42,483 nucleotides of DNA from a virus: positions 1 to 42,483 of the IMG/VR virus record IMGVR_UViG_3300033151_000560; one strand, written 5' to 3'. Position 1 is the first letter of the stretch; every line of letters starts with the position of its first letter. A program made the translations under genes and the position numbers. Under the pieces are notes generated by a model. That model had not been told where the DNA came from. It saw nothing but the letters and a program-made list of their open reading frames with translations, and did no database searches. Below, in pieces: positions 2,560 through 31,128 of this stretch.

Positions 2560-2588
2560 TGTATAGACAGATGATGTTTAATTTTTAA
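2560..2588 (-). promoter_or_regulatory. promoter, TTAAAA-N17-TATACA
   Basis: Minus-strand -35 TTAAAA and -10 TATACA lie exactly 17 bases apart. A CAAGAAATTATAAGGAA leader follows before the ATG at 2532. The -35 contains the stop codon of the upstream gene at 2585. It is one of eight elements of the same type in this window. Confidence 0.7.
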
Positions 2589-2800
2589 CTATTGCCTCTT
2601 TTGTTTATGTCGTCCCAGTATAAGGTCTCATTCCTAAATCTAAGTATGGCATTCATTTCATCAGGGTACCCCTTACCCAATTTAACAGTGTTATTAGCGT
2701 CTGCTGTATGCATCAATGTAGCCAATGTTTCCTTGAATTTAGATAATCGCCCATATTGCCAGTCGTATATAAATTGTTCGGCTTCGGTTAGTTTAATCAT
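2585..2800 (-). CDS. hypothetical protein, 71 aa
   Basis: A 71-residue, mostly helical protein (MIKLTEAEQFIYDWQYG...) with an AGGAA site before the ATG. It is the first protein gene downstream of the large non-coding, structured region at 2.8-3.6 kb, so it could be cotranscribed with that RNA. No motif recognised. Confidence 0.65.
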   Translation of the reverse strand: MIKLTEAEQFIYDWQYGRLSKFKETLATLMHTADANNTVKLGKGYPDEMNAILRFRNETLYWDDINKRGNS

Positions 2801-3104
2801 GTGGTTGGTTTCCTATATTGGTATGAAGATTTTCAAAGGGACTGCAAAAAATATTTAGGGATACTTTGGTTTAACCTTGGAAGAGGGAGGTTAAACTTAT
2901 ATACAGCCCCCGTGAAAATCTTCGGAGTGGAACTCTCTCTTTATTTTTAAAACTCTCTTTTATGGACGGCGGTGAGGCATCGCACCTCATGTTTAGGTAT
3001 TTAAACGTCATCATTCCCTAACACCCGCACTACAAGGGTCGGTCTTACATTATCCCGCGTTACCCGCCATATATTTTAATGAATCTCCCCTACTTGCATA
3101 TGGG

Positions 3105-3144
3105 GAGAAGATCGGTGGTAAGACACCGGGTCTTCTCTATTTTT
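3105..3144 (+). terminator. terminator-shaped hairpin, plus-strand sense
   Basis: GAGAAGATCGGTG (3105-3117) pairs with CACCGGGTCTTCTC (3124-3137) over 13 bp with one bulge and a GTAAGA loop. TATTTTT follows on the plus strand, giving the form of a Rho-independent terminator. No plus-strand gene precedes it, so it may simply be a helix of the structured RNA read from the other strand. Its 5' arm overlaps the competing CTCCCC/GGGGAG hairpin. Confidence 0.4.
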
Positions 3145-3331
3145 ACGTATAACATTGATTCTTAATAGAACCAATTACGAAATGGCGCCGAATACAGCGC
3201 CTAGAAATTGTCGTGATTATAAGGAAATCGATGATCTTAAGGGGATCATCATACACGATTGGTGTGGTACAAACGCATGGTTATTCATGCTCCCACATTA
3301 TTTTTTAGAAAATTTGTCTTTTTTACTTAAT

Positions 3332-3425
3332 TGGATGGGCGGTGGGATTTGAACCCACAAACTTAGGACCACACTCTTGCCATCGTTCTCTCCGGCAGTC
3401 TAGGTATGTCCTAATTATTCGCCCC
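3332..3425 (-). ncRNA. tRNA-like domain lacking D and anticodon arms
   Basis: Read on the minus strand, the 3' half is tRNA-like: GTGGG-TTCAAAT-CCCAC is a canonical T-arm and T-loop, GGGCG/CGCCC is an acceptor-like stem, and CCA occurs at the 3' end. Instead of D and anticodon arms, a 7-bp helix TTAGGAC/GTCCTAA encloses 38 nt containing a TGCC/GGCA hairpin. That layout (acceptor, no D-stem, long helix, T-arm) is the tRNA-like domain plan of tmRNA, but far too short and with no tag reading frame. It could be a degenerate tRNA or a module of the surrounding structured RNA. Confidence 0.5.
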
Positions 3426-3433
3426 TATAAATG

Positions 3434-3458
3434 CGGTGGTTTTTTTGAAAAACCACCG
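3434..3458 (-). other. 11-bp perfect hairpin beside the tRNA-like domain
   Basis: CGGTGGTTTTT pairs with AAAAACCACCG across a 3-base loop. It lies 9 bases upstream (minus sense) of the tRNA-like acceptor stem. No U-tract follows on either strand, so it is more likely a structural or processing helix of the RNA than a terminator. Confidence 0.6.
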
Positions 3459-3532
3459 AGTAATCTGTAAAGGAGTTAACAGATATGGTGCAAACGTGCC
3501 ATTTTTACTAGCACTCCCATGCCACTTTTTAG

Positions 3533-3555
3533 ATTATATTCTTTTTTGTTTTAAT
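3533..3555 (-). promoter_or_regulatory. possible promoter of the structured RNA
   Basis: Minus-strand TATAAT is preceded at the right distance by TTAA, matching the frame of the TTTAAG-N11-TATAAT promoters found elsewhere, though without their G and TG. It would start transcription near 3525 and read through the non-coding region. About 80 bases between this site and the Tat-signal gene's end hold no other signal I can support. Confidence 0.4.
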
Positions 3556-3605
3556 ATCTCCGACCCCTCCGGGCATCACGTTGGTCTTATTCCTTCCCCT
3601 TTTTT

Positions 3606-4079
3606 TTATAATAATGTTATTGTTATACTACCTTCATTAAATGACAAGACATCTCCATCATACAATTTTGTTTTTTTATTTAATTGTTGGAAGAACATCA
3701 AATTTTTGCCGTCATATATACCCAAACTCATTGCAATGAGGGGGTCTAACCCAAAAGGGTACCCTTTAATTGCGGGAAATTTTATTTGATTTTGGTTTGA
3801 CATTTCACCTTCAGCCACATTAGTGAGATCAAAATTTATATCTATATATTGTCTTTCATAGCCCCAATAATTTAATTCGTCACCATTACCATCGGCGTCC
3901 ACTATATTAGAGAACAGAGCCAAAGTAAATTTCTTCAAATGGTGATGAGTCTTATCTTCTTTATCAACGATCAACGATCCAACTACTTCCTCCGGTGGTT
4001 TGACTTGACAAGCTGACGCTGGGAGAGCCGTGGCTACCGCTCCTATTCCTAATATTTTTAAAAAATTTCTTCTTTTCAT
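3606..4079 (-). CDS. Tat-signal protein with phage fibre-like domain
   Basis: The N-terminus reads MKRRNFLKILGIG, a textbook twin-arginine motif followed by a hydrophobic stretch and PASAC at residues 20-24, usable as an AxA signal peptidase site or a weak lipobox with Cys24. The rest (about residues 45-157) resembles a domain common in phage genes annotated as tail or head fibre proteins: FTLALFSN, WGYERQYIDINF, IKFPAI, GIYDGKNLMFF, then a final GDVLSF..GSITITL. Known: Tat exports folded proteins, and phage virion proteins do not normally carry such signals. Inference: an exported or surface-anchored protein made in the infected cell, perhaps a decoy or superinfection-exclusion factor. Confidence 0.65.
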   Translation of the reverse strand: MKRRNFLKILGIGAVATALPASACQVKPPEEVVGSLIVDKEDKTHHHLKKFTLALFSNIVDADGNGDELNYWGYERQYIDINFDLTNVAEGEMSNQNQIKFPAIKGYPFGLDPLIAMSLGIYDGKNLMFFQQLNKKTKLYDGDVLSFNEGSITITLL

Positions 4080-8894: not shown

Positions 8895-9095
8895 TTAATC
8901 TATATCTAACGAATCTACCACTGCATCCAGCATCTTGTTAGATATCACTACATCGTTCAACGCTTTTTCAAAATGTGGGAAATCCCTAAAGATAGATTCT
9001 TTGATATCTTCCCAACAGACGTAACTTTCCACACATTTTTCTTCGTGAAAATATTTAACCATGGTTAAATCGTCGTCTGTATATTCTCTAGGCAT
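8895..9095 (-). CDS. hypothetical protein, 66 aa
   Basis: A small acidic protein whose start overlaps the last codons of the PurZ-like gene by 8 bases, so the two are probably translationally coupled. It contains two Cys (EEKCVESYVCWED) but no zinc pattern. Its coupling to a nucleotide-biosynthesis enzyme is the only functional hint. Confidence 0.6.
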   Translation of the reverse strand: MPREYTDDDLTMVKYFHEEKCVESYVCWEDIKESIFRDFPHFEKALNDVVISNKMLDAVVDSLDID

Positions 9096-10446
9096 AATTA
9101 AAATCTTCCGACATCACGTCGTCCGTAAATAAGACATTGGACAGATCTCTACCAGTTTGAAGGATGGAAACATCTATGTCTTCCATATCCGCTTCATTTA
9201 AACATTCCCTCAAATCCGTAGCCCACTCTTGGACATCATCATTACTCATAACTATCATAGGGTTAATTTCATCCGCTATGTCAGGAATATGATAATTCAT
9301 GAATGTGAATGATAAATAATCCGGATCGATAGTAACCTTTGCTTTTTTGAGTAGTTCTATTGACGTGGCTCTATCAGGTATGGCGATACGTCTATTTAAC
9401 TTGGTTAATGTGGTCACTTCTTCCACTGTGGAACCAATACGGCTGGATAAATCCCGCCAACTAATTTCCGTCATATCAGTCTCAAATGTCCCGGAAGTAC
9501 CCACTACACCATAAATAGCGTGGACTGTGAAATCAAATCCGAATGGTACTGTGGATTGATTTTTATAGACCACTTTTTCTACAATCGCGTTAACATCTGA
9601 ATATGATAAACCTAACTCCGACGCGTTCACTCTACTTGTTTCTTCGGGGTAATCTATGTTCGAAATGTCAACTGTAACTTTGGAAAAGTCGTCGTCTTTA
9701 AATCTGTTGGAAACTCTGATCGGGTAAACTCTAATGTTACCTACCACTTTACCTAGATATCTTTTAGGACTTAACCCAAAATCTGACATAGCTTGCGCTG
9801 GTGATACATTTCTATATGTGTTATATGGGTACTCGATGGAATAATCTACAGACAATGGAAACCCCTGTGGTAACTCACACAAGGCAGTAAGCCCTTTATT
9901 TAACGATTCAGCCAATTTGGTGGTGTATTCCGGGTAATCTATGATACACGCAATCTCCACCAACTCCGGATAATCTTTAGCCAGTTTGATCGTAGACGAT
10001 CTTGCAGATTTTTCATTAACTGCCGCACTCTGCCCCGAATGTGTACTACCCAAATGGTTTTCCAACCCCATGGCTTTGGCTTCCGCAATTTTATGGGATG
10101 GTTGAATTACCATCGCCCTAGCCGAAATAATTAATTTGTTTTTTGGGATTCCAGTGTATTCAATCTCTTTACGGAGTTGGTCAATCTCAAATCCAGCTGA
10201 TGGGGCTATGATTACTGTTGGGTGATAATCATCTCTCACTTTATATAAAAATGTAGCTGAAGGTAAAATTTTGAATACAAATTCTTCGTCACCTTCTGTG
10301 GCTGTGTGAGAAGCACTTACATTATGTGTACACATAAGTATTTCCGGTCTAAATCTGTCGGCGATCGCTGTAACTACTTGTGCTTTACTTGAACTACCAT
10401 ATGTGATGTCCAGCAGAAAATTCACTTTCCCTTGATCTAATTTCAT
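9088..10446 (-). CDS. purZ-like: PurZ-like adenylosuccinate synthetase homologue
   Basis: This 452-residue protein shows the PurA family motifs in order. YGSSSKAQ (residues 16-23) stands where E. coli PurA has WGDEGKGK. THNVSASHT (40-48) matches the NAGHT block, LGSTHSGQ matches the IMP-contacting IGTTGRG loop, PQGFPLSVDY matches GAQGTLLDIDHG, and ILQTGRD near the end matches STGPDR. The catalytic Asp13 of PurA is Ser18 here, the kind of replacement reported for phage PurZ, which joins Asp to dGMP on the path to diaminopurine DNA. Later insertions differ from both families, so the substrate is uncertain. An AAAGGATATAT site precedes the ATG. A MazG-like gene lies downstream; no dATP hydrolase (DatZ) was seen in the window. 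Confidence 0.75.
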   Translation of the reverse strand: MKLDQGKVNFLLDITYGSSSKAQVVTAIADRFRPEILMCTHNVSASHTATEGDEEFVFKILPSATFLYKVRDDYHPTVIIAPSAGFEIDQLRKEIEYTGIPKNKLIISARAMVIQPSHKIAEAKAMGLENHLGSTHSGQSAAVNEKSARSSTIKLAKDYPELVEIACIIDYPEYTTKLAESLNKGLTALCELPQGFPLSVDYSIEYPYNTYRNVSPAQAMSDFGLSPKRYLGKVVGNIRVYPIRVSNRFKDDDFSKVTVDISNIDYPEETSRVNASELGLSYSDVNAIVEKVVYKNQSTVPFGFDFTVHAIYGVVGTSGTFETDMTEISWRDLSSRIGSTVEEVTTLTKLNRRIAIPDRATSIELLKKAKVTIDPDYLSFTFMNYHIPDIADEINPMIVMSNDDVQEWATDLRECLNEADMEDIDVSILQTGRDLSNVLFTDDVMSEDFNYA

Positions 10447-30900: not shown

Positions 30901-30931
30901 ATATCCGTCCTTCTTAATTTTTAATTATTTG

Positions 30932-31008
30932 TCCACAGAGTAAGACTCGAACTTACGAATTAGATGCGTGGGATGCATCTCACCTGACCAACTTGGTTGT
31001 ATCTGTGG
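30932..31008 (-). tRNA. tRNA with anticodon CCC (Gly?)
   Basis: A full cloverleaf can be drawn: acceptor CCACAGA/TCTGTGG (7 bp), anticodon stem GATGC/GCATC with loop ATCCCAC, T-arm GTAAG-TTCGAGT-CTTAC and D-loop AAGTTGGTCA. The anticodon CCC would read GGG (Gly), but C1-G72 with A73 is atypical for Gly, the D-stem has a mismatch and an extra linker base, and the 3' CCA is not encoded. A TATACT lies about 60 bases upstream. The 31009-31128 gap otherwise holds only GC-rich short repeats (CCCCAAGGG twice). Confidence 0.7.
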
Positions 31009-31128
31009 GTAAATGGGTGGGTAGATCCCTTGGGGTAACTGGATAACTGGTACCCTTGGGGAAGCCCCGTAAAAGTATACAGGGTAGGAGTATTTTTGAT
31101 TAACTTATTTATTCACAGTAGAAGTATT

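Follow-up and report, generated by a model that had tools for sequence, protein, structure and literature searches.

A structured noncoding stretch of a phage genome with two uL1-type modules flanking a tRNA-like domain

The IMG/VR record analysed here (the window, meaning the whole linear stretch of 42,483 bases) otherwise has almost no intergenic space, and the 805 nt that separate two of its minus-strand ORFs raise the question of what, if anything, they encode. The gap is the largest in the window, the next two being 401 and 224 nt long, and every convincing gene lies on the minus strand. The proteins encoded in the window include a UvsX-like recombinase, helicases, a PurZ-like synthetase and sigma-factor-like proteins, and the record is therefore likely to be part of the genome of a large tailed phage. 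No close relative of the window was found in the phage records and viral contigs searched, nor were relatives found when sought by way of the neighbouring protein and the helicase; searches with PurZ and the helicase reach distant phages only. The PurZ-like protein (a 2-aminoadenylosuccinate synthetase at 9088-10446, minus strand) suggests that the DNA of this phage contains 2-aminoadenine (Z).

The noncoding gap and its folding

The minus strand of positions 2810-3540 is predicted to fold at -216.8 kcal/mol, compared with -172.6 ± 5.7 kcal/mol in 20 dinucleotide shuffles, none of which is as low (z -7.76); for the plus strand of the same interval z is -4.59 against dinucleotide shuffles. Two of the three segments of 120 nt that are most over-stable for their GC content genome-wide also lie here (2804-2923 and 3084-3203, both minus strand), and the long hairpin at the end of the gap (Table 1) directly precedes the next ORF. 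An earlier note on this DNA had described a gene-free stretch of about 700 nt, densely structured, with at least nine helices. Both observations hold: the density of structure is beyond chance, and the helices are present, with 5-11 bp. The stretch itself was well placed, but the RNA is now assigned to the minus strand and its span adjusted to run from about 3535 (possibly 3600) to 2825. Its ends, and all helices outside the two modules described below, are thermodynamic predictions from a single sequence; beyond the modules and the tRNA-like domain these predictions comprise about 400 nt of further stable domains.

Table 1. Positions of the window features and of the phage mini RNase P RNAs, with the basis of each assignment
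Feature	Position	Strand	Basis or remark
Upstream ORF	3606..4079	minus	157 aa, signal-peptide-like start, without family
Noncoding gap with RNA, about 0.7-0.8 kb	2801..3605	minus	gap size and fold z -7.8
Downstream ORF	2585..2800	minus	71 aa, function not assigned; weak match phrog_15317
Module A, AUGG-GA-GUGCUA/UGGCAC-GUUUGCA-CCAU	3485..3520	minus	module-model score 29.1 bits
Module A with flanking helix AAUCU/AGAUU (putative P5-like frame)	3462..3535	minus	sequence; frame as in phage RNase P P5
11-bp hairpin CGGUGGUUUUU/AAAAACCACCG	3434..3458	minus	predicted fold and sequence
tRNA-like domain	3332..3426	minus	tmRNA-model T-arm match E 0.004, fold, pattern scan
Module B, GUGG-GA-GCAUG/CAUGC-GUUUGUA-CCAC	3264..3296	minus	module-model score 32.7 bits; exact rplA-leader pattern
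Module B with flanking helix AAAUU/GAUUU and hairpin 3251-3229 (putative)	3225..3315	minus	fold and sequence
Hairpin GGCGCUG/CGGCGCC	3184..3201	minus	predicted fold and sequence
Hairpin AUUGGUUCU/AGAAUCAAU	3154..3175	minus	predicted fold and sequence
Two base-sharing hairpins, GAGAAGA..UCUUCUC (inside: CGGUG/CACCG) and CUCCCC/GGGGAG	3085..3137	minus	predicted fold
Multi-helix domain, closing region AUGGCGG/CCGUCCAU; hairpins UGAGGUGC/GCCUCA and GUUUA/UAAAC	2962..3070	minus	predicted fold
Long hairpin GAAGAUUUUCA/UGAAAAUCUUC, inner GUUUAACCU/AGGUUAAAC	2825..2923	minus	over-stable segment and fold
Mini RNase P RNA	L056:2541-2747		archaeal model 34.8 bits, E 5e-7
Mini RNase P RNA	L057:9814-10015		P1, P2, P4, P5 form; among phage tRNAs
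Mini RNase P RNA	L071:3489-3709 (same in L289)		bacterial class A model 64.3 bits, E 1e-20; among phage tRNAs
Mini RNase P RNA	L004:10914-11158		P1, P2, P4, P5 form
Mini RNase P RNA	L171:2431-2690		LR745206, 634,780-bp uncultured huge phage

Elsewhere in the record a tRNA-Gly (CCC) with a 3-bp D stem is found at a 90% threshold (30931-31008, minus strand); it was missed by ARAGORN at default settings and by Rfam. Adjoining it, in a second intergenic gap, is the 120-nt segment (31001-31120, plus strand) whose excess stability for its GC content is the highest in the record.

Two uL1-type modules and a tRNA-like domain

The earlier note had read the stretch as a candidate for a large, structured noncoding RNA in which a tRNA-like module occurs, and this description stands, except that it overlooked two modules of the type bound by ribosomal protein uL1. 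These modules (copies A and B) flank the tRNA-like domain and have a common layout of outer helix, GA, inner helix, GUUUGYA and outer helix, the GA lying opposite GUUUGUA and the inner helix being closed by G-C; copy A departs from it in having C for U in the loop (GUUUGCA) and in its shorter outer helix. Within the window GUUUGNACC occurs at A and B only, and both pair fully, when 0.0004 such sequence matches would be expected in the record by chance. A model prepared from six phage modules from outside the window picks out exactly A and B, with the next match at 13.8 bits. Both copies lie in a short P5-like helix and have a similar A-rich sequence upstream.

The module was assigned by its genomic associations. 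When a collection of 85,000 species of prokaryote genomes was scanned with the exact form of copy B (GTGGGAG-N8..18-CGTTTGTACCAC), 109 loci were found, 94 of which directly adjoin rplA/rplK in tblastn (70 between L11 and L1, 17 before L1, 6 before L11 plus L1 and 1 with L11 only); downstream ORFs were confirmed as Ribosomal_L1 (PF00687) at four loci, and eight of the remaining 15 loci are RNase P RNAs. When two bacterial genomes were searched in full with the module model, each gave a single match, in the L11/L1 setting both times. The 23S rRNA of E. coli has GGUGGGAGGCU...AGCCGACCUUGAAAUACCACC at 2115 ff, a region included in the H76-H78 segment that uL1 binds, and the mRNA sites of uL1 are like the rRNA site both in their sequence and in their secondary structure, with possibly two uL1 sites in Firmicutes (PMC10931766). 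From the rplA/rplK association, the model matches in the L11/L1 setting and the likeness to 23S H76-H78, the module is thus a uL1 binding site by genomic association, and we infer that its phage copies would bind uL1 as well. The sequence part of the search pattern was taken from the window and loci were chosen by pairing, so that there is some circularity in the scores and in the covariation of conserved bases, from which the association with rplA and the RNase P cores described below are free. Outside the modules, comparison of the window RNA with 23S and 5S rRNA gives only 9-nt chance matches.

The rplK-rplA autoregulatory site and 23S H76-H78 have the same succession of helix, GA/GUUUGUA internal loop and helix, and copy B is letter for letter the rplA-leader pattern; it may fit the uL1 site of the host itself less exactly. 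Unlike the rplA-leader site, the window copies are two in number, lie in a phage noncoding RNA and are far from start codons. This last difference bears on whether host uL1 might sit on a leader and control translation of the phage genes downstream, as would follow from the role of the module upstream of rplA/rplK in bacteria. At most bacterial sites the distance to the start codon is no more than about 10-60 nt, whereas some 685 and 465 nt separate the ends of copies A and B from the next ORF, with the tRNA-like domain and several stable domains intervening; because of this distance of 465-685 nt, regulation in cis is very improbable.

The tRNA-like domain comprises, in order, the acceptor strand GGGCG, a linker AAUAA, one long arm (UUAGGAC to GUCCUAA), GUUU, the T-arm GUGGG-UUCAAAU-CCCAC, then CGCCC, AU and an encoded CCA. 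The window has a single such combination of T-arm, paired acceptor and CCA, and 200 shuffles have none. The tRNA-like module noticed earlier is retained in this form, but not as a canonical tRNA: a decoding tRNA was rejected, as ARAGORN has no default match and at relaxed settings reports only 'tRNA-?' with a broken anticodon arm, and the domain forms no cloverleaf with a 7-nt anticodon loop. Acceptor plus T-arm, one long arm and CCA are features in common with tmRNA and viral tRNA-like structures. However, the search with the tmRNA model that the earlier note had proposed yields the T-arm alone (3358-3342, the sole suggestive Rfam match at E <= 10) and not the full tRNA-like and mRNA-like domains; only model positions 347-363 of RF00023 match, at 14 bits vs 47, ARAGORN finds no tmRNA, and this identity too was rejected. 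BLAST of the region against phages likewise returns T-arm matches only.

No Rfam family matches the gap RNA at threshold, and riboswitch or ribozyme identities considered by eye have no Rfam support. The first interpretation had likened the RNA to the phage RNAs GOLLD and ROOL while recognizing no diagnostic sequence of either, and covariance models bear out the latter point, giving nothing at E <= 10. The ROOL model (RF03087), with which true members score 320 and 158 bits, has no such match here; the GOLLD model (RF02032) has no match in the record at E <= 10, and it scores control genomes only below its cut-off, with no positive control found. ROOL shares with the window RNA its size, phage setting and dense folding, and GOLLD its size and phage setting; GOLLD linkers sometimes hold tRNAs (PMC12286853). 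Since the two ROOL RNAs that were fetched have no uL1 module, and no model matches, the likeness is one of size and setting only. No full-length homologue of the window RNA was found in the viral contigs or phage records searched, and for this reason it is no more than a candidate for the new class that had been suggested, and its helices outside the modules have no covariation support.

uL1-type modules in other phage RNAs and in RNase P RNAs

A strict module scan gives no match, and relaxed scans of viral contigs give many chance matches in coding sequence, which were filtered by pairing and gene context. Of 123 distinct matches, 10 pass the pairing filter compared with 3.35 expected, a count reached in 2 of 1000 inner-letter shuffles. 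Intergenic modules are present in phage contigs L004 (and its copies L042 and L059), L021, L036, L056, L057 and L071. The covariation score of eight modules is 0.49, against 0.13 in shuffles and 0.03-0.13 when the structure is slid; because pairing helped to select the loci, this result is supportive but not independent. Rejected as modules were L022, L041, L053, L110 and L286-L288 (coding or badly paired), and a module-like hairpin in L066, at only 16.5 bits, was not counted. The reverse strand of L066 is noncoding there and has a tRNA-like 3' end (7-bp acceptor, T-arm and CCA, with no tRNA or tmRNA call) 345 nt downstream of this weak hairpin.

Four of these phage RNAs (L004, L056, L057 and L071), together with a fifth in the huge phage L171, belong to RNase P and measure about 205-245 nt (Table 1). 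Helices P1, P2, P4 and P5 form in all five despite their different sequences; in each a GAGGAA-like CR-I precedes the module by 29-30 nt and an ACAGAA-like CR-V follows it, and the module lies between the two strands of P5, which is the place of the specificity domain. All five are unannotated and below the Rfam thresholds, and for L071 and L056 the scores under the curated cut-offs explain why. The specificity domain of RNase P grips the tRNA elbow, and in these phage mini RNase P RNAs it appears to be replaced by the uL1 site. In the literature searched, no report on a phage-encoded RNase P RNA was found and none linking uL1 with RNase P or with phage noncoding RNA, and the huge-phage paper makes no mention of RNase P (PMC7162821). 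In phages the module lies in structured intergenic RNAs, most of which are mini RNase P RNAs not described before.

These RNAs and the window RNA are alike in having the module in a P5-type frame, in occurring in large phages and, in some cases, in having tRNAs nearby. The window RNA differs in being three times longer and in having two modules and a tRNA-like domain but no CR-I, CR-V or P4; as it lacks a CR-I/CR-V pair with P4 and is not matched by RNase P models at E <= 10, it was rejected as an RNase P RNA. The modules might still be leftovers of RNase P RNAs that once stood beside tRNAs, the gap then holding decayed or divergent copies together with a degenerate tRNA gene. Such an origin would accord with the fact that phage modules occur mostly in RNase P RNAs, often adjoining tRNAs, and with the P5-like helix and A-rich upstream sequence of both window copies. 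It is nevertheless improbable, as neither a GAGGAA/ACAGAA pair with P4 near the modules nor a model match is found, the helices are intact, and the folding is far beyond chance.

The nearest in kind to the window RNA is an intergenic RNA of about 600 nt in a 100.8-kb phage contig (L021:2660-3290, minus strand; z -6.2), which is likewise large and structured, has one uL1 module and has no Rfam match; unlike the window RNA it has no tRNA-like T-arm that could be found, and no sequence likeness was noted beyond the module. Modules are carried both by RNase P RNAs and by RNAs of the window and L021 type, so that phages have the uL1-type site in no fewer than two kinds of RNA. An intergenic RNA with the module in a 149.9-kb phage contig (L036:4170-4395), which shares the lead-in AAAAAGUGGC with copy A, is possibly a third kind, since it has a CR-I-like AAGGAA without a clear CR-V.

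The site is also found in cellular RNase P RNAs, in Paenibacillus at a P19-like position (L186:3363-3761 and L243:7633-8000, where RF00010 matches far above threshold) and in Chloroflexales at other positions (six loci, L178, L225, L238, L242, L244 and L279, identified from conserved blocks by eye and the pattern only). These are apparently independent acquisitions.

Possible uses of host uL1

From sequence, structure and context we consider it probable, with moderate confidence, that a noncoding phage RNA is encoded in the gap and that it docks two host uL1 molecules on a scaffold bearing a tRNA-like domain. The phage would transcribe an RNA of ~0.7 kb from the minus strand, and two molecules of host uL1 would dock at sites that imitate the base of the 23S L1 stalk. 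The RNA would most likely serve as scaffold for a phage RNP, with uL1 borrowed as an RNA-binding protein ready for use, just as the phage RNase P RNAs appear to borrow it, with its site in place of the specificity domain. On the ribosome the L1 stalk contacts the E-site tRNA, and by analogy uL1 would, speculatively, help to hold the tRNA-like domain.

Two sites per molecule that imitate the rRNA and autoregulatory mRNA targets alike could also serve to take up free uL1, so that an abundant RNA would relieve autogenous repression of rplK-rplA or disturb host ribosome assembly, the tRNA-like domain then serving only for processing or stability; phage RNAs of this size can indeed top phage transcript abundance, as in ICP1 (PMC7567579). 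However, rRNA binds uL1 with higher affinity than do the mRNA sites (PMC10931766), and very high abundance would thus be needed; moreover, the structure of the window RNA far exceeds the needs of a sponge, and the single sites in catalytic phage and bacterial RNase P RNAs point to use of uL1 and not to its titration. We regard such sequestration as unlikely and favour instead that uL1 is recruited to play a structural part or to handle tRNA, because single sites in catalytic RNAs are no sponges.

Recruitment of uL1 could be part of a wider pattern, which we put forward tentatively and as somewhat doubtful: phages may repeatedly have moved the L1-stalk/uL1 site into RNAs that handle tRNA. In the mini RNase P RNAs host uL1 would then grip the tRNA elbow for the specificity domain, in the window RNA the tRNA-like domain would be held between two uL1 molecules in the manner of the ribosomal E site, and Paenibacillus and Chloroflexales would have put the site into their own RNase P RNAs at other positions.

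We know of no established function for the large phage RNAs (GOLLD, ROOL and the ICP1 RNA), and uL1 is an abundant and easily purified protein; naming it as a likely partner makes one large phage RNA a testable RNP. That the uL1 site is present in RNase P RNAs of phages and of some bacteria suggests a connection, hitherto unsuspected, between uL1 and the maturation of tRNA. RNase P RNA encoded by phages would also demonstrate that large phages bring with them the processing of tRNAs as well as the tRNAs.
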